Positions 7,830 to 17,640 of a stretch of 26,849 nt of DNA are shown here, piece by piece. The stretch is from a virus, in IMG/VR virus record IMGVR_UViG_3300030329_006262, positions 1 through 26,849 of that record; one strand, written 5' to 3'. Position 1 is the first letter of the stretch, and each line of letters begins with the position of its first letter. Below the pieces are notes generated by a model, which made no database searches, had not been told where the DNA came from, and saw only the letters and a list, made by a program, of their open reading frames with translations. Position numbers and translations under genes: made by a program.

Positions 7830-8921
7830 ATGGCTAATACGTTCAAAACTTTTCTAAACAATGATATTGCAAGTGCGCGCACCCTCTTGCATGAGGCAAT
7901 CCCCATCACAGGGACAATTGTGTCGGGTACCTATGAAGTCAGCAAGACAACGGCGGCGCCTAATATTAAAACTTTTGCGCATGGAATGTTTGAATCTGTA
8001 TATGATTATCCTTATCTGAGTTCATCAGCCAATCATATTTTTGATCTAACAGCAGGGTATTCAGCAAAGAGTGGATTATCCGCGTCTAGCAACACTCAAA
8101 ATGCGAAGAAAATAAATGTCTATAATCAAATGGCACAAGTGTTGGTGGGGTATGATGTGACCGGAGCTATTGACCTTTTTGATAAGGATGGGGACGTAAC
8201 AGCGGGCGGTACAAAAATGAAAGAATGTTTTTTCGTCAACTTTGCTAGGCTTCTAACAAAAGATGAAATCAAGAAAGATTCTTTTAGGCTTGAATTATAT
8301 ACTACTGCCAGTGGAGTAAATTTGGGCACCCGGCGAGCGGGTCGTAAAACATTAGGTGATTATGGTGCCGCAACAAGCTATAAAGTCAACTCCCCTACTG
8401 GAGAATATGGACTTCTTTATACTGCCTCGGCAGACCCTAAAGGAGAAATTGTAGGTCACGTATATTATCAAGCAGGTATTGCAGTACTCACTGCATCAAT
8501 TTTTAGTGGCGCCTTTGGCGATCCTAATGGACCGGCTAGTGGTACCTATTCTCCCGAGCATAGCCCTTTGGCACGCCAAGTCAACAACCAACTAACTGGC
8601 TCAACGATAACAGAATTATCAAATGGTTTTCGTTTTACGATGGATAATGTAGAATATAACAATACCACGGAACTTAATTCAACCATTTATTTCTGTCGAG
8701 CAAATACCCAAGATTATAATTACAGCTCTAATCCCACATATTTAACTGCCAGTAAAATTAGAGTTAAAAATGACAATCCCAAAGCTGAGCCTGTTTCTTA
8801 TATTACCACAGTAGGGTTGTATTCGGCGGATAATGAACTTTTAGCAGTTGCTAAACTTTCGGAGCCATTGAAGAAATCTCCATCTAACGAATTGACATTG
8901 AGAGTAAGACTCGATTATTAA
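7830..8921 (+). CDS. Structural protein (363 aa), paralogue of the next gene
   Basis: ATG at 7830 follows AAAGGA at 7816-7821. The N-terminus MANTFKTFLNNDIASARTLL is a type I recall from uncultured marine phages. Matching blocks show it is related to the 400-aa product that follows: IKKDSFRLELY against IKKNSLKLSFY, NYSSNPTYLT against NYSANPTFVT, and a final strand VGLYSADNELLAVAKLSEPL against IGIYDKDKNLIAVANLAKPI. The N-terminal regions differ. The shared C-terminus ends in alternating hydrophobic beta strands (LTLRVRLDY), suggesting a common assembly interface with different partners at the N-terminus. It is probably a tail or baseplate component; no enzymatic motif is seen. Confidence 0.72.
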   Translation: MANTFKTFLNNDIASARTLLHEAIPITGTIVSGTYEVSKTTAAPNIKTFAHGMFESVYDYPYLSSSANHIFDLTAGYSAKSGLSASSNTQNAKKINVYNQMAQVLVGYDVTGAIDLFDKDGDVTAGGTKMKECFFVNFARLLTKDEIKKDSFRLELYTTASGVNLGTRRAGRKTLGDYGAATSYKVNSPTGEYGLLYTASADPKGEIVGHVYYQAGIAVLTASIFSGAFGDPNGPASGTYSPEHSPLARQVNNQLTGSTITELSNGFRFTMDNVEYNNTTELNSTIYFCRANTQDYNYSSNPTYLTASKIRVKNDNPKAEPVSYITTVGLYSADNELLAVAKLSEPLKKSPSNELTLRVRLDY

Positions 8922-10143: not shown

Positions 10144-10656
10144 ATGATTTTAGGATTAGATGTAAGCACCAGCATAACTGGTTATTGTATTCTTGATGGA
10201 ACCGGCGAGATTATACGTAGCGACGCTTGGGACATGAGAAATAAAAAATATTTTTCTTCTATGTTTCGCAAGGCTGAGTATATAAAAGAAGCCATATTTG
10301 ATATGAAAGTTCAATATCCCATTCAAAAAGTTTTTATTGAAAAACCTTTTATGTTTTTTGGCTCTGGAGGATCAACGGCAAAAACTATGGCTACCTTACA
10401 ACGATTCAATGGTATGGTTTCATGGATTTGTTATGACGCCTATAAAATAACTCCGGAATATTTTACCGCCCAGCAGGCTCGAAAGCTTAATGAAATTAAT
10501 ATTTCGCGAGGATCTAATACGAAAAAAGAAATATTGAATTGGGTGATGGAAAGGTATACAGATTTCAAGGTAGAATATACCCCCAAAGGTAATCCCAAGC
10601 CTAAATACTTTGACATTGCTGATGCTATCGTGGTAGCCAACGCGGGTATTAGATGA
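10144..10656 (+). CDS. RuvC-like Holliday junction resolvase
   Basis: A 170-aa protein with the RNase H-fold layout of RuvC-type resolvases. The first strand is ILGLDVSTSITGY with catalytic-type Asp6; the second acidic site is VFIEKP with Glu66; the C-terminal helix FDIADAIVVA carries Asp157 and Asp160. A helix with Gln and Lys/Arg residues (TAQQARKLNE) lies between. Length fits RuvC (about 170 aa). Enzymes of this kind cut four-way junctions and branched DNA, which in a T4-type phage resolves recombination intermediates before packaging, a job done in T4 by the unrelated endonuclease VII. AAGGA lies 7-11 nt before the ATG. The stop overlaps the next start in an ATGA, so it is coupled to the nuclease and primase downstream. 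An alternative is another RNase H-fold nuclease with branched-DNA preference. Confidence 0.88.
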   Translation: MILGLDVSTSITGYCILDGTGEIIRSDAWDMRNKKYFSSMFRKAEYIKEAIFDMKVQYPIQKVFIEKPFMFFGSGGSTAKTMATLQRFNGMVSWICYDAYKITPEYFTAQQARKLNEINISRGSNTKKEILNWVMERYTDFKVEYTPKGNPKPKYFDIADAIVVANAGIR

Positions 10657-11114
10657 ATTGGAAAGATGGCGCCAACAACGATACAACCCTCTATGAAATA
10701 CTTCAAAAAATTAAATCTCATCATCAAAACGCTGGACAAGTCTTTGTAGGAACCGACTCCCTCATTCACTCGGGAAAATGTACTTTTGCGACGACCATTG
10801 TGTTGTTGGGCGCAACGGGTCAAAGAGGAGGGCTTTACTTTTATAAAAAAGAAAAATATAATGAGCCTACAAGGTTTTACACAAGGATACTAAAAGAAGT
10901 AGAAAAATCTATAAATATTGCCATGAGTATTACTGAGATGTGTCCTAATATCAATTTAGAAATCCATATAGATGTTTCTCCGGAAGACGGGAATGAAAAG
11001 ACGTCTCGTATGGCTAAAATGTTATTGGGGTATGCCAAAGGCTCAGGATTTAAATGTAAAGTCAAACCCAACGCTTTTGCTGCTTCATCAGTAGCCGATA
11101 AACATACCAAATGA
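10653..11114 (+). CDS. YkuK-like (DUF458/PF04308) RNase H-fold nuclease
   Basis: A 153-aa protein matching the YkuK/DUF458 family pattern that I remember: an N-terminal strand VFVGTDS (Asp35), a central strand EIHIDVSPEDG (Asp107), and a C-terminal signature KPNAFAASSVADKHTK with Asp149. These acidic positions correspond to a ribonuclease H-like active site. The biochemical role of this family is poorly defined. The gene overlaps both neighbours by 4 nt (ATGA at each end), so resolvase, this protein and primase are produced together, which suggests work on replication or recombination intermediates such as RNA primers or branched DNA. No separate RNase H is seen in the window, so primer removal is one hypothesis. 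Confidence 0.82.
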   Translation: MNWKDGANNDTTLYEILQKIKSHHQNAGQVFVGTDSLIHSGKCTFATTIVLLGATGQRGGLYFYKKEKYNEPTRFYTRILKEVEKSINIAMSITEMCPNINLEIHIDVSPEDGNEKTSRMAKMLLGYAKGSGFKCKVKPNAFAASSVADKHTK

Positions 11115-12037
11115 ATACACCAAACAAAGAACATATATTACAAGCCATCTTGGGAGATCCCTATTCGTCCAGAGATGAGCTTTTATTCTATTGTCCCTTT
11201 TGCAAACATCATAAAAAAAAGCTTTCTATAAATTTAGAAAAGTTAGTTTTCAAATGCTGGGTTTGCGACACGAAAGGGGGCGCCGCCTATTTGGTAAAGC
11301 GTTTCGGAACCACCGAGGATAGACACCAGTGGGAACTTCTAACTCAAGAAATAGACATGTCTTCGGGTGAAAACATGTTTGAGGTGGAGGAAACTACGAC
11401 TCCTCAAATTATTGAACTTCCTAAAGAGTATTTTTGTTTGGCGCGCAAAGACCTACCCTACTCAGCTAGAGAGCCCCTGGCGTATCTATGGAGCCGCGGC
11501 ATATCTGCGCGTGATATACTGTACTACAAAATTGGATATTGCGATAGGGGAAAATATAGAAAACGCATTATCCTCCCTTCTTTCAATTTAGAGGGAGAGT
11601 GTAACTTTTTTTCTGCGCGTACGTACACGGGCGATTGGCTTAAATATAAGAACCCCCCTGCTTCTAAAAATATTATTTTTAATGATCTTTTGGTTGATTG
11701 GGATGCTCCCATTACTCTAGTGGAAGGGGTTTTTGATGCCATAAAAATAGAAAACTCTATTCCTATTTTGGGATCCACACTAACGCAAAACAACATACTT
11801 TTCAAGAAATTAGCCGAGAAACAACCCAAGGTTTTTCTGGGATTAGATAGGGATGCTTTATCTAAATCTTTACAAATGATTTTTTCTATGTTAGAGTATG
11901 GAGTAGAAATTTGTCTTTTGGACACGTCGAAGATAGATGATATTGGATCTATCACTAAAAAAGAGGCAGAGCAATTGAAAAAAACTGCATTGCCTATGAA
12001 CACAGAGAATATTTTTAATATTTATTGGAGAGATTGA
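11111..12037 (+). CDS. DNA primase (CHC2 zinc finger plus TOPRIM)
   Basis: A 308-aa primase. The N-terminal zinc-binding module has Cys28-x2-Cys31 (YCPFC) and Cys49-x2-Cys52 (CWVC). A central basic segment (KYRKRIILPSFN, about 149-160) leads into the TOPRIM domain, with ITLVEGVFDAI (Glu205, Asp209) and VFLGLDRDA (Asp246, Asp248) as metal-binding acids. Primases of this type make short RNA primers for lagging-strand synthesis together with a replicative helicase. Length is close to T4 gp61 (about 340 aa) and shorter than bacterial DnaG, so the bacterial helicase-binding domain is absent. No helicase gene is in the window. The start overlaps the nuclease stop (ATGA) and the stop overlaps the next start (TGATG). 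Confidence 0.93.
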   Translation: MNTPNKEHILQAILGDPYSSRDELLFYCPFCKHHKKKLSINLEKLVFKCWVCDTKGGAAYLVKRFGTTEDRHQWELLTQEIDMSSGENMFEVEETTTPQIIELPKEYFCLARKDLPYSAREPLAYLWSRGISARDILYYKIGYCDRGKYRKRIILPSFNLEGECNFFSARTYTGDWLKYKNPPASKNIIFNDLLVDWDAPITLVEGVFDAIKIENSIPILGSTLTQNNILFKKLAEKQPKVFLGLDRDALSKSLQMIFSMLEYGVEICLLDTSKIDDIGSITKKEAEQLKKTALPMNTENIFNIYWRD

Positions 12038-15000
12038 TGGTTAGAATAGCGCATATTAGCGATACTCATATAAGAAATTTGCGATATCACAAAGAATATC
12101 GCGAGATTTTTAAAACACTTTTTGAGCGCTTGCGTCAAGAAAAAGTAGATTACATTATCCATTGCGGGGATATAGCACATTCCAAAACTCAAATCTCTCC
12201 CGAATTTGTAAAATTATGTTCTGAATTTTTAATTGGGCTTTCAGGGGTTGCTCCAACCTATATAATATTAGGGAACCATGACGGAAACTTGAAGAATAGC
12301 AGTCGCGAAGATGCTATTTCTCCCATTGTTGACGCTTTAAAATTACCTAACTTATATCTGTTAAAAAACTCAGGGGAGACACAGCTTAATGCTGAAATTA
12401 CTCTTAATGTACTTAGCGTCTTTGATCGCAGCAACTGGGTTAATCCTACTAATACCAGTAGGATTAACGTGGCTCTTTATCACGGATCTATCTCCAATTG
12501 TCAAACGGATTTGGGCTGGACTATGGAAAACGGAGAAAACGACATCTCCATCTTCGAAGGTTTTGATTTTGCCTTCCTCGGAGACATCCATAAAACAAAC
12601 CAATCCCTTGATAATGAAGGAAGAATAAGATACTGCGGTTCGACAGTACAGCAAAATTTTGGGGAAACCAACGATAAAGGTTTTCTTATTTGGGATATTA
12701 AAAACAAAAATGACTTTAAAGTCAAACATGTTGGTATACCCAATCCCAAACCTTTCGTTACTATTCGCCTCACTAAAACCGGGCGCTTGCCGAAGAATGC
12801 CCAATGTCCCTTGGGGGCAAGATTACGTCTTGTTTCCGAAAATAATTTACCCCTCCACACAATGAAGCGCGCCATTTCCGCTGCGCAACATCGTTTCAAA
12901 GTGGAAAGAGTCACCTACCTTAATAGAGCCGCAGGAGAACGTGGAGACGTTTCTGCCCATACAAATAATCTTGCTATAGATAATTTACGGGACGAATCAG
13001 TACAGAAAAAACTTATCAAGGAGTACCTTAAAGATTATCAACCAACTGAGGAACAGTTGGAAAAAGTGTATGCTTTAAATAAAAAATACAATCAAATTAT
13101 CAATGAAAATGAAGAAGTAAATCGTAATGTAAATTGGAAACTTTCCACCATAACATGGGACAATCTATTTAACTATGGAGAACAAAATAGTATTGATTTT
13201 GCCAATCTAAGTGGCATTGTGGGAATTTTTGGCAAAAACTATTCTGGTAAGTCTTCTATAATTGATAGCTTACTTTACATCCTATTCAACTCCACAAGTA
13301 AAAATGAAAGAAAGAACCTTAATATTATTAATCAAAATAGAGAAAACGCGCTGGGGAAAGCTATTGTTACGATTGGTGATAAAGAGTATACAGTGGAAAG
13401 AAAAAGTGAAAAGTATATTAAAAAACTTAAAGGAGAAGAAACCCTCGAAGCAAAAACCACAGTAGATTTTTATGTGACGGATTTGGTTACTGAAAATGTA
13501 CAAATTCTCAATGGTACAACAAGAAATGAGACGGATAAAATTATTCGCAAACATTTCGGGACTTTGGAAGACTTCCTTTTAACCTCTATGTCCTCTCAAC
13601 TGGGAGCGTTACAATTTATTAGCGAAGGCTCAACCAAAAGAAAAGAAATTTTAGCTAAATTTCTTGATTTGGAAATATTTGATAAAAAGTTCAAATTAGC
13701 CAAAGAGGATGCTACTGATTTGCGGGGAGCTTTGAAACGCATTGAAGAAAAAAACTATGACGATGAAGTCTATGAAATTGAGAAGCAGCGCCTTCATTTA
13801 GAAAATGAAACGACCGTACAAAACAAAAAATGTGAAGAACTCGGAGAGGTGATTAGTACATTAAACTCGGAGGCGAACACCCTGCAGGGCAAGATCGATC
13901 AAAGCCCAGCGGAAATCATCAATATAAAGAACGTCACTAAACAAATAAAAACCAAAAGAGACACCCTAGAAACTTATTCTATTTGTATAGCGGAGTGTGA
14001 TCAAAAACTTACTCAAAATAAGCAAATTTTGGATAAGATTTCCATTGTAGAAGATTCTTTTAGGTTGGATGAGTATAAGAAGAAAAAGGAACAAATAGAC
14101 CAAATACTTGACGAAATAACATCACTTGATAAAGATCTCGAAAGCTCTCAAAAATTGTTAGATATAAATTATAAAAAAGTTTTACTTTTAGATGAGGTAC
14201 CGTGCAGTGATAAGTACCCTACGTGTAAATTTATAAAAGATGCGCACGAAGCTAACGAAAAATACTTTAATCTCACTCAACGAGTAAAAGATTTACAAAA
14301 GCAAAACGATGAGAAACAAGAGCAGGTGAAGGAACTAAATGAAAAAGAAACCAACTCTTATCTTGAAAAATATAATCAAGTTATGCAAAAGAAAAACATT
14401 GCTGAGAAGACCGCCCTCGAATTAGAAGTGGAGAGAAAAGGTTATGAAAATAATATCCTCACCAATCAAAAGGAACTTAAAGAGCTTTTAAATAAAAAAG
14501 AAGAATATGAACAAAATAAAGAACTCATTGAAAATAAAGAAGTGTTTCTTCGCACTCTTGCCAACATTACCAATGCTTTATCTACCAAAGAAAAAGAAAA
14601 GAAAGAGTGTCAAAATATTCTCTTAGAATATTATAAAGAGCACGGCTCCCTCGAACAAAAGATAAAAAGCCTAGAGGAAAAAAAACAAGAAGTTATAAAT
14701 CTCCAAGAAGAATACTCAGCCTATGATTTATTTATGAGATGTGTACACACCAATGGTATTGCTTATGATATTATCAAGCGTCAACTCCCTGTAATCAATG
14801 ATGAAATTGCTAAAATTTTAGCTAATGTGGTGGATTTTGAGGTTTATTTTGAAGCAGATAATAAAAATCTAAATATCTTTATCAAGCATCCCAAATATTA
14901 TGGGAGACCTTTGGACTTGGGAAGCGGTGCCGAAAAAACTCTTGCTGCGATGGCAATACGGCTGGCACTCCTCAGTGTTTCTTCTCTTCCCAAGTCGGAT

Positions 15001-15192
15001 ATATTCATTTTAGATGAACCAGGAACAGCGCTAGATGTGGACAATATGGAAGGCTTTATTTCTATTCTAGAACTAATTAAAACATACTTTAAGACGGTTA
15101 TATTGATCTCTCATCTTGACGGTCTAAAAGATTGTGTGGATAAACAAATTATGATTGATACAAAAGAAGGATTCGCACACATATCTATTTGA
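12037..15192 (+). CDS. Single-chain SbcD-SbcC (Mre11-Rad50, gp47-gp46-like) fusion
   Basis: A 1051-aa protein combining both subunits of the recombination nuclease. Residues 1-240 are a calcineurin-like phosphoesterase: SDTH (8-11), CGDI (43-46), GNHD (79-82), YHG (148-150) and GDIH (182-185). After a linker (about 330-365) comes an SMC-type ATPase: P-loop GKNYSGKSS (399-407), Q-loop region near 521, long coiled coils (about 560-900) with a hook CSDKYPTC (723-730), signature LGSGAEKTLA (961-970), Walker B FILDEP (990-995) and His1026. In T4, gp46 and gp47 are separate and process ends for recombination-dependent replication. I chose ATG 12037, with GGAGAG 5 nt upstream, over a TTG 12 nt earlier because the protein then begins MVRIAHISDTH as in the family. 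The start overlaps the primase stop by 1 nt. Confidence 0.93.
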   Translation: MVRIAHISDTHIRNLRYHKEYREIFKTLFERLRQEKVDYIIHCGDIAHSKTQISPEFVKLCSEFLIGLSGVAPTYIILGNHDGNLKNSSREDAISPIVDALKLPNLYLLKNSGETQLNAEITLNVLSVFDRSNWVNPTNTSRINVALYHGSISNCQTDLGWTMENGENDISIFEGFDFAFLGDIHKTNQSLDNEGRIRYCGSTVQQNFGETNDKGFLIWDIKNKNDFKVKHVGIPNPKPFVTIRLTKTGRLPKNAQCPLGARLRLVSENNLPLHTMKRAISAAQHRFKVERVTYLNRAAGERGDVSAHTNNLAIDNLRDESVQKKLIKEYLKDYQPTEEQLEKVYALNKKYNQIINENEEVNRNVNWKLSTITWDNLFNYGEQNSIDFANLSGIVGIFGKNYSGKSSIIDSLLYILFNSTSKNERKNLNIINQNRENALGKAIVTIGDKEYTVERKSEKYIKKLKGEETLEAKTTVDFYVTDLVTENVQILNGTTRNETDKIIRKHFGTLEDFLLTSMSSQLGALQFISEGSTKRKEILAKFLDLEIFDKKFKLAKEDATDLRGALKRIEEKNYDDEVYEIEKQRLHLENETTVQNKKCEELGEVISTLNSEANTLQGKIDQSPAEIINIKNVTKQIKTKRDTLETYSICIAECDQKLTQNKQILDKISIVEDSFRLDEYKKKKEQIDQILDEITSLDKDLESSQKLLDINYKKVLLLDEVPCSDKYPTCKFIKDAHEANEKYFNLTQRVKDLQKQNDEKQEQVKELNEKETNSYLEKYNQVMQKKNIAEKTALELEVERKGYENNILTNQKELKELLNKKEEYEQNKELIENKEVFLRTLANITNALSTKEKEKKECQNILLEYYKEHGSLEQKIKSLEEKKQEVINLQEEYSAYDLFMRCVHTNGIAYDIIKRQLPVINDEIAKILANVVDFEVYFEADNKNLNIFIKHPKYYGRPLDLGSGAEKTLAAMAIRLALLSVSSLPKSDIFILDEPGTALDVDNMEGFISILELIKTYFKTVILISHLDGLKDCVDKQIMIDTKEGFAHISI
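12439..12468. repeat. Perfect 12-bp inverted repeat inside the SbcDC gene
   Basis: GTTAATCCTACT (12439-12450) and AGTAGGATTAAC (12457-12468) are exact reverse complements separated by 6 nt. The repeat lies within the phosphoesterase domain, encoding residues about 135-144 (VNPTNTSRIN). The mRNA would form a stable hairpin. There is no T-run, so it is not a terminator. Confidence 0.8.
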
Positions 15193-15203
15193 GGTAATAT
15201 TTT

Positions 15204-16427
15204 ATGTCTTTTGATTGGGGCGCCGGTACCACTTATTATGTAGCTAAGTGGGGAAATGATAGCAATGCAGGCACTTCCCCAGTTACTCCCAAACTCACTA
15301 TTGATGGGGCTTTAACAGATGCGACGACCGATGGCGACAACGTAGAAATAATTGATGAAGGAACTTATGTTGAATCTGTTACAGTGCGCGCCAACGATAT
15401 TACAGTTGCACACACAGCCAGCACCCTTGGACGTCCCGTAATGCAAGGCGCAGGCGCACTAGCCTGGGCATTTAATACAATAGGGGGTCCCTACAATAAC
15501 CTCACCATTGATGGCTTAGAAGTAAAAAATTATGTTACTGACCCCGGAAACGACGACGGAGGCTTTGTTAAAAATGCGGCGGGCATGACCGGACTTACAA
15601 TTAAAAATTGCTTTGCCCATCAAATTTCGCGAATCAATTACAACCAGCTAGGGGGAACCCTTACCAATCCCACTCTTATTGAAAAAACTATAGTTTTTGC
15701 TGATGACTTAGCAACGGATGATGTCATAGAAAGTCAAGTCTCTGCTTATATAAAAGTTGTTAATTGTCTCATTACGGGAACCACGGGAGGTTATGATCAC
15801 AATCAGGCTCTTTATAACGCTAATGGTTCCGTCCATTCCACAGCTAGTTTCTCGACTTTTATTCACCGGGGGACAAAAACTGAATCCCAAGTGATAGTAG
15901 AAAAAGTAGCCAAGGTTATAGACTGTATTGTTTCTGGTGCAGGCTATGGCATTCAAACCAATGATCACACTTATAACGTAGTAGATACCTCACAAACTAA
16001 TTTTTTAACTGCTGGGGGCGCCTCCGCTTCTGCGGGTACGGGAGATCAAAACGACACTAACCCTCTTTTTGTAGATGGAGATTCTATGGGAAATACGATA
16101 GCAGTGGCGGAAAATTATAAAATTCAAGCTGATTCTCCTGCATATGCGGCAGGTATTGCTTTTGATTCGATTAATGAGGATTTAGCTAGTGAGACTCGTG
16201 TCAATCCTCCTTCAATCGGAGCGTATGAGTATATCCGAGCTTGGAGTGATTATTACGACTCCGGGAAGCGCTTTACTGGGGCGTTTGTAGATAGGAAATT
16301 TGAAAGAGTCAAGGGGGATTATAAATATAAGTGGACTGTCCCCAATCGTCAAGGACCCTTTTCTCTAAACATACCAGGGGTCCCTTCGTTGCGTAATCGT
16401 AGTAGTGCTTATTCAGGGAGTATCTAA
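15204..16427 (+). CDS. Beta-helix tail spike/fibre protein, copy 1
   Basis: A 407-aa protein with a right-handed beta-helix pattern. The start has the YYVAKWGNDSNAGTS-type motif common in secreted and phage beta-helix proteins, followed by TIDGAL, VEIIDEGTY, GLTIKNCF, VVNCLIT and KVIDCIVSG repeats, each one rung long, and closing with NPPSIGAYEY, typical of such domains. A terminal unit of about 60 residues (WSDYYDSG, then GAFVDRKFERVKGDYKYK, then LRNRSSAYSGSI) is shared with the next gene. Such proteins usually trimerise and bind or degrade host surface polysaccharide; no catalytic residues can be assigned. GAGG is about 10 nt before the ATG. It follows the recombination operon by 11 nt. Confidence 0.8.
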   Translation: MSFDWGAGTTYYVAKWGNDSNAGTSPVTPKLTIDGALTDATTDGDNVEIIDEGTYVESVTVRANDITVAHTASTLGRPVMQGAGALAWAFNTIGGPYNNLTIDGLEVKNYVTDPGNDDGGFVKNAAGMTGLTIKNCFAHQISRINYNQLGGTLTNPTLIEKTIVFADDLATDDVIESQVSAYIKVVNCLITGTTGGYDHNQALYNANGSVHSTASFSTFIHRGTKTESQVIVEKVAKVIDCIVSGAGYGIQTNDHTYNVVDTSQTNFLTAGGASASAGTGDQNDTNPLFVDGDSMGNTIAVAENYKIQADSPAYAAGIAFDSINEDLASETRVNPPSIGAYEYIRAWSDYYDSGKRFTGAFVDRKFERVKGDYKYKWTVPNRQGPFSLNIPGVPSLRNRSSAYSGSI

Positions 16428-16452: not shown

Positions 16453-17640
16453 ATGACTATATATTATGTTTCCGACACCACAGGCAATGATGCCAACGCT
16501 GGAACCTCCCTCGCGTCGCCTAAAAAAACCATAGCCAATGCATGTGCAGTTGCGGACGGGGGTACAGGCAATATCGTGGAGATTATTGATTCTGCAACTT
16601 ATGAGGAAGGTGATATTGCTATATACACCAATCCCATTAAAGTTCGGGCTACTGGAAGCAACAAGCCGGTTATGGACGGAGACCCCAACAACAATGATTA
16701 TGCATTCACTTCTAATTGCAGCGGCAATGTGTTCCAAGGGTTGACTATGCGTAATTACGATGATGGAATTATGGGAACTTTTGGCTGGCCAGTTAATAGT
16801 TATGCTTTTATGTTATCCGGCTGCATTTGTCATTTTATACAAGGACCCCAACAGATTGGTGCTGGAGGGATGGCAGAGGTTCAGCGCTCCTTGGTAGTGA
16901 GCGATACTCGCAATGCCTTTACCGTATATGAAAACCAACACGTGTGGTTTAACAATAGTGTCCTAGCTTCCAATGCAGATGGCTACCCGGTTATTGATTC
17001 TACACAGGCAATGGTAAATGTTACAGCTAGTTTCTGTACTTTTCTTGGAGATGGATACACCACCGCAGGCGGCGCCAGATCTTGGAATTTATTAAATCAA
17101 GTATCTAAAGTAATAAATTGTATTGTTTCCGGTACAGGTGATGGTATAAATGCGGATAGCAGTACTTATAATTTAGTACATGTAAGTGGAGATCCTTTTA
17201 TTACGTGGTCCGCAGCAGATTATGATGGCACACCGAGATCTGCGAATACTGGAGAGATCACGGGCAACCCACTCTTTGTTACCGGAGGTGTTCCGGGTGA
17301 AATAATCTTTACGTCTCAAAATTATGATCTACAAGTGGGTTCCCCAGCTATAGGGGCTGGTGTGGCTTTCGCGGGGGTTTCAATTGATCAAAGCGGAACA
17401 GTGCGTGTGGATCCCCCTAGCATTGGTGCGTACGAAGGTCCAGGCGCACAATGGAGTGATTATTATGATACAGGAAATAGGCGCTATACGTCAGCTTTTG
17501 TCGACCGACGTTTTGAAAAAATACGAGGAGACTATAAATACAAATCTACATTGGACAACCGCCAAGCTCCGTTTTCCTTGAATGTCCGCGGCGTCCCCTC
17601 TTTACGAAATAGACAAAGTGCCTATTCGTCGAGCATCTAA
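16453..17640 (+). CDS. Beta-helix tail spike/fibre protein, copy 2
   Basis: A 395-aa paralogue of the preceding gene. Shared features in order are an N-terminal IYYVSDTTGNDANAGTS, VEIIDSATY, KPVMDGD, a VTASFCTFL rung, KVINCIVSGTGDGI, NPLFV, an NYDLQVGSPAIGAG rung, VDPPSIGAYEG, and the C-terminal unit WSDYYDTG ... SAFVDRRFEKIRGDYKYK ... SLRNRQSAYSSSI. The middle of the helix has diverged most, as expected if the two copies recognise different surface ligands while keeping a common end. AGGG lies about 8 nt before the ATG. Host-surface binding as a trimeric spike is inferred; depolymerase activity cannot be shown from the sequence. Confidence 0.8.
   Translation: MTIYYVSDTTGNDANAGTSLASPKKTIANACAVADGGTGNIVEIIDSATYEEGDIAIYTNPIKVRATGSNKPVMDGDPNNNDYAFTSNCSGNVFQGLTMRNYDDGIMGTFGWPVNSYAFMLSGCICHFIQGPQQIGAGGMAEVQRSLVVSDTRNAFTVYENQHVWFNNSVLASNADGYPVIDSTQAMVNVTASFCTFLGDGYTTAGGARSWNLLNQVSKVINCIVSGTGDGINADSSTYNLVHVSGDPFITWSAADYDGTPRSANTGEITGNPLFVTGGVPGEIIFTSQNYDLQVGSPAIGAGVAFAGVSIDQSGTVRVDPPSIGAYEGPGAQWSDYYDTGNRRYTSAFVDRRFEKIRGDYKYKSTLDNRQAPFSLNVRGVPSLRNRQSAYSSSI

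Follow-up and report, generated by a model that had tools for sequence, protein, structure and literature searches.

A phage SbcD–SbcC (Mre11/Rad50) fusion of the Mimivirus R555 kind, a member of a large family in environmental phage contigs

The window analysed here, a stretch of 26,849 nt (positions 1 to 26,849 of the IMG/VR virus record IMGVR_UViG_3300030329_006262), contains at 12037–15192 on the plus strand a single open frame without a stop, coding for 1051 aa. The reverse strand of this interval is packed with stop codons, and GGAGAG, a ribosome-binding-like sequence, lies ahead of the ATG. Pfam assigns to the protein Metallophos (residues 3–153, E 2.5e-14) and AAA_23 (374–591, 8e-11); the PHROGs matches are phrog_100, SbcD-like (1–379, 4.7e-33), and phrog_77, SbcC-like (179–1047, 3.8e-56). 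A sequence-only reading had taken the gene for a fusion of SbcD and SbcC, and the single frame with Pfam and PHROG matches for both halves bears this out. The start codon overlaps by 1 nt the gene of a DnaG-like primase (11111–12037, plus strand; phrog_47, E 3.7e-40). The same cluster contains genes, also on the plus strand, for an RNase H-like protein (10653–11114; PF04308 in Pfam) and a RuvC-like Holliday junction resolvase (10144–10656; phrog_159, E 1.9e-14). For the two proteins encoded downstream of the fusion, at 15204–16427 (407 aa) and 16453–17640 (395 aa), Pfam and PHROG searches gave no match; the 407-aa protein has a relative (36%) at the equivalent place in another locus, L114.

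The fusion protein starts with an Mre11/SbcD phosphoesterase domain carrying motifs I–V (12037–12735, residues 1–233; Pfam Metallophos, AlphaFold model and SbcD structure match). A capping-like domain follows (12754–12924, residues 240–296), delimited by secondary structure in the model and by the SbcD nuclease and capping match that ends at residue 296. A helix–loop–helix (HLH; 12994–13107, residues 320–357) is, judging by its position and by PMC3175470, the likely counterpart of the Rad50-binding element of Mre11. A short linker (13108–13131, residues 358–365, from the AlphaFold model) joins the two halves. The second half comprises the ATPase N-lobe with Walker A (13132–13671, residues 366–545; Pfam, model, structure match and alignment), the ascending coiled coil (13672–14196, residues 546–720), the hook apex C723-x6-C730 (14197–14235; motif inspection and family alignment), the descending coiled coil (14236–14754, residues 734–906) and the ATPase C-lobe with the signature SGAEK, Walker B ILDEP, D-loop and switch His (14755–15189; motifs, structure match and alignment), both coils being delimited in the AlphaFold model.

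The AlphaFold monomer model, made from 44 sequences (mean pLDDT 83, pTM 0.51), places the phosphoesterase, the capping-like domain, the HLH, a linker of ~8 residues, the Rad50 N-lobe from residue 366, the coils and the C-lobe in this order; the HLH is formed by two helices, 320–334 and 338–357, and the coiled-coil apex lies near 721–733. The capping domain and HLH are thus retained in the model with a short linker to Rad50, as in R555-like fusions. Heads of E. coli SbcCD and of Mre11-Rad50 were the solved structures closest to the model (Z ~28), and S. aureus SbcD nuclease and capping domains matched the range 1–296 (VIA Z 24.6). Among viral predicted structures (BFVD) the top matches were similarly long DNA repair proteins of giant viruses (Tupanvirus, E 3.4e-62, Yasminevirus, Harvfovirus and Catovirus); Tenacibaculum phage proteins of ~1310 aa came next.

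All motifs expected of SbcCD/Mre11-Rad50 in the broad sense (nuclease motifs I–V, Walker A and B, signature and D-loop) were found in the window protein. In the nuclease half they are I D9xH11, II G44D45xxH48, III G79N80H81D82, IV H149 and V G182D183xH185; in the ATPase half, Walker A GKNYSGKSS (G404/K405), signature S963G964xE966, Walker B D993E994, D-loop D1000 and switch H1026. The nuclease comes first and the Rad50/SbcC ATPase follows in a single chain, the arrangement that defines R555-like fusions. Three features are non-canonical: GDIAH as motif II, GDIH as motif V and PCSDKYPTCKF, a Cx6C, at the apex. The earlier statement that both halves carry complete motifs therefore holds in that every nuclease and ATPase motif is there, and has to be amended in that motif II reads GDxxH and motif V GDxH (not GDxxD and GHxH) and the hook, PCSDKYPTC, is Cx6C (not CxxC).

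A scan of IMG/VR with an alignment query matched at least 599 stretches, at least 586 of them coding for a relative. Both halves were in one frame in all 80 of the best 80 among these at least 586 relatives (68–47% identity), and the protein of Microcystis phage Mel-JY01, used as a query, added 20 further loci, 19 of them fused. In a ranking by the nuclease half only, begun from a distant member and chosen so as not to favour fusions, 79 of 80 viral loci were fused and the remaining one stops at the end of its locus. Pooling gave a set of 189 fused proteins, that of the window included and the rest from independent contigs, with near-uniform length (mostly 1030–1075 aa). The catalytic positions tested are at or near 100% across the set; H48 of motif II is kept in 183 of 184 proteins and D183 of motif V in 189 of 189. 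In most relatives a same-strand primase match was seen upstream of the fusion.

The apex is more variable. A CxxC hook is typical of the SbcCD/Mre11-Rad50 apex and does not strictly define it. The window protein has at this place PCx6C (14203–14226, C723-x6-C730) instead of the CXXC motif named in two papers on the Rad50 hook. Cx6C is the commonest apex of the fused clade, in at least 129 of 189 proteins, a lower bound because a further Cys after the pair makes the automatic classification take some Cx6C apices, such as that of L013, for Cx3C. CxxC, Cx7C and Cys-poor apices are also present within the clade, and the unfused SbcC of a Moorella phage has PCx7C. With CxxC variants present in the clade itself and PCx7C in an unfused phage SbcC, the window protein still belongs to the broad SbcCD family.

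Fusions of Mre11 and Rad50 were described by Yoshida, Claverie and Ogata in 2011 in Mimivirus (R555), Bacillus phage 0305phi8-36, plasmids, bacteria and eukaryotes (PMC3175470). These authors found aquatic metagenomes to be rich in R555 homologues, with enrichment in the viral fractions; the homologues probably come in part from phages, and primases share some metagenomic scaffolds with them (PMC3175470). In R555, H replaces the last D of GDxxD and D replaces the residue corresponding to P. furiosus H206, the first H of GHxH; the order of fusion and the linker were argued to suit the known complex, with the linker need estimated at 9–12 residues (PMC3175470). Both R555-type substitutions, GDxxH and GDxH, were found in the window protein. 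As in R555, its Mre11 part precedes Rad50 within a single chain, and it shares with R555 the length of the capping and HLH region and the short linker; further likenesses to R555 and its aquatic-phage kind are primase neighbours, seen on some metagenomic scaffolds, and being the only SbcCD of the virus. It differs from R555 in length (1051 versus 1351 aa) and in belonging to a phage rather than a giant virus. The window gene is a phage member of the R555-like fusions, a kinship indicated by the structural matches to giant-virus proteins and by the residues quoted in PMC3175470. The type has been known since 2011, and the gene comes from a large family spread over hundreds of environmental phage contigs. 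The idea that the fusion might be new to phages must therefore be given up: many phage homologues share it, as seen in the IMG/VR scans (at least 586 relatives, the best nearly all full-length fusions) and the nuclease-half ranking, and it occurs in Mel-JY01 and Xanthomonas phage XacN1 as well as in the 2011 description.

Among annotated genomes of cultured phages, those of Mel-JY01 and XacN1 carry such fusions. The Mel-JY01 protein (WWT39521.1, 'AAA domain containing protein') is a 1066-aa fusion of the same clade with a primase upstream, and the terminase and portal of the window are related to those of this phage (43% and 37%) and of the metagenomic huge phage LR756508; the window portal also matches Portal_T4. 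Mel-JY01 differs from the window in a small ORF separating primase and fusion and in a CxxC-type apex, the fusion proteins being 30% identical. T4 gp47/gp46 have the same domains and a probable shared role but are encoded by two genes with two small ORFs between them, and have GDxxD, GHxH and CxxC; the contrast drawn earlier with the separate genes of T4 is thus correct. XacN1 ORF305 (1099 aa) and the MT837445 fusion are also single-chain SbcD–SbcC proteins, unlike that of the window in their GHxH motif and in their place in the tree with unfused phage proteins. The fusion is the only strong match to SbcD and SbcC in Mel-JY01, in XacN1 and in eight large contigs (147–204 kb) related to the window, which may be incomplete.

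Two metagenomic huge phages extend the distribution: LR756501 (735 kb) encodes a fusion of 1202 aa, and in LR756508 (484 kb) the fusion copy is broken by another ORF. In LR756508.1 this ORF (L001, 6665–7582) comes right after motif V (GDIH) and has a TnsA-like endonuclease domain (PF08722) and zinc-finger-like cysteines; the insert looks like a mobile element. An Rfam search for an intron in this interrupted copy gave no match. In CP070664.1 (L116), a 'chromosome' of a WOR-3 MAG, a phage-like fusion gene is tied to bacterial sequence via a run of unknown bases, and the MAG chromosome appears to contain a misplaced phage contig. A Vibrio campbellii plasmid match that looked fused in one alignment was rejected, as it actually consists of two adjacent genes.

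In trees built by FastTree (SH-like supports, limited taxon sampling) the window's clade came together with support 0.989 when the nuclease and the ATPase head were used jointly. The same fused clade was obtained from each half separately, weakly for the nuclease half (0.416). The XacN1 fusion joins a group of unfused T4-like proteins (0.996), and that of MT837445 falls near the unfused Moorella phage pair (0.80); these two are probably fusions independent of the window's clade. Because they group with or near unfused proteins, the trees suggest, within the limited sampling, at least three separate fusion events among phages.

The best explanation, and in our judgement very probably the right one, is that the gene encodes a phage R555-like Mre11/Rad50 fusion acting as a 2:2 homodimer, a recombination nuclease that does the job of T4 gp46/gp47; its function is read from homology and gene context. 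The homodimer would form via the ATPase heads and nuclease domains, giving a 2:2 assembly in which ATP-driven closing of the heads would gate a Mn-dependent nuclease at DNA ends or hairpins. Recombination-dependent replication would be fed by the 3′ single strands that the resection of ends leaves, and the fusion may also assist degradation of host DNA. We propose that the capping domain, the HLH and the short linker could allow the nuclease half to rest against the base of the coiled coil in the same chain.

The unfused SbcCD complex is already 2:2. The fusion homodimer would be 2:2 likewise, so stoichiometry is unchanged, and the earlier suggestion that fusion fixes it adds little. What fusion probably does is ensure co-expression and a 1:1 supply, and turn the pair into one transferable unit.

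The altered GDxH site could change metal use or activity. One may ask if the protein has another role, e.g. in degradation of the host chromosome or in counter-defence against hairpins or ends, with GDxH altering metal use or specificity; the near-fixation of GDxH and GDxxH in the fused clade, and the annotation of T4 gp46 as needed for host DNA degradation too, speak in its favour. We regard such a role as unlikely: clustering with the primase, the RNase H-like protein and the RuvC-like resolvase indicates replication and recombination, and GDLH is also found in an unfused SbcD of T5-like type, so that GDxH alone is no mark of a new role. It is similarly improbable that the PCx6C apex and the GDxH site make up a variant differing in apex dimerisation or metal chemistry, the metal site perhaps lying within one chain instead of between two.

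In pairwise comparisons of the window with three relatives pN was far below pS in every region, the junction included, with pS near saturation, a pattern of purifying selection spanning the nuclease–ATPase junction. That a stop or frameshift lost in assembly or sequencing merged two adjacent genes has hardly any probability left: SbcD and SbcC genes are separate yet close in T4, Bacillus, Staphylococcus and T5-like phages, but the same uninterrupted one-frame fusion recurs in independent contigs of many metagenomes, which rules out an assembly artefact, and both the nuclease-half ranking and the selection continuous over the junction argue the same way.

Short metagenomic reads had led in 2011 to the inference that the R555-like fusions abundant in aquatic metagenomes are largely phage-borne; this is supported here with far more data, and a single-chain phage version of 1051 aa could suit structural work on Mre11-Rad50. 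Apart from these two points the fusion is an ordinary one.

Two loci showed individual peculiarities. At L111 (3304–6544), a distant relative (26%), we saw frames of 224 and 860 aa, split inside the phosphoesterase domain, possibly by a frameshift or sequencing error. At L012, the closest viral relative among the matches listed, the 3′ end of the fusion gene is repeated in part directly downstream (8186–8365; residues 992–1051, 80% identical).
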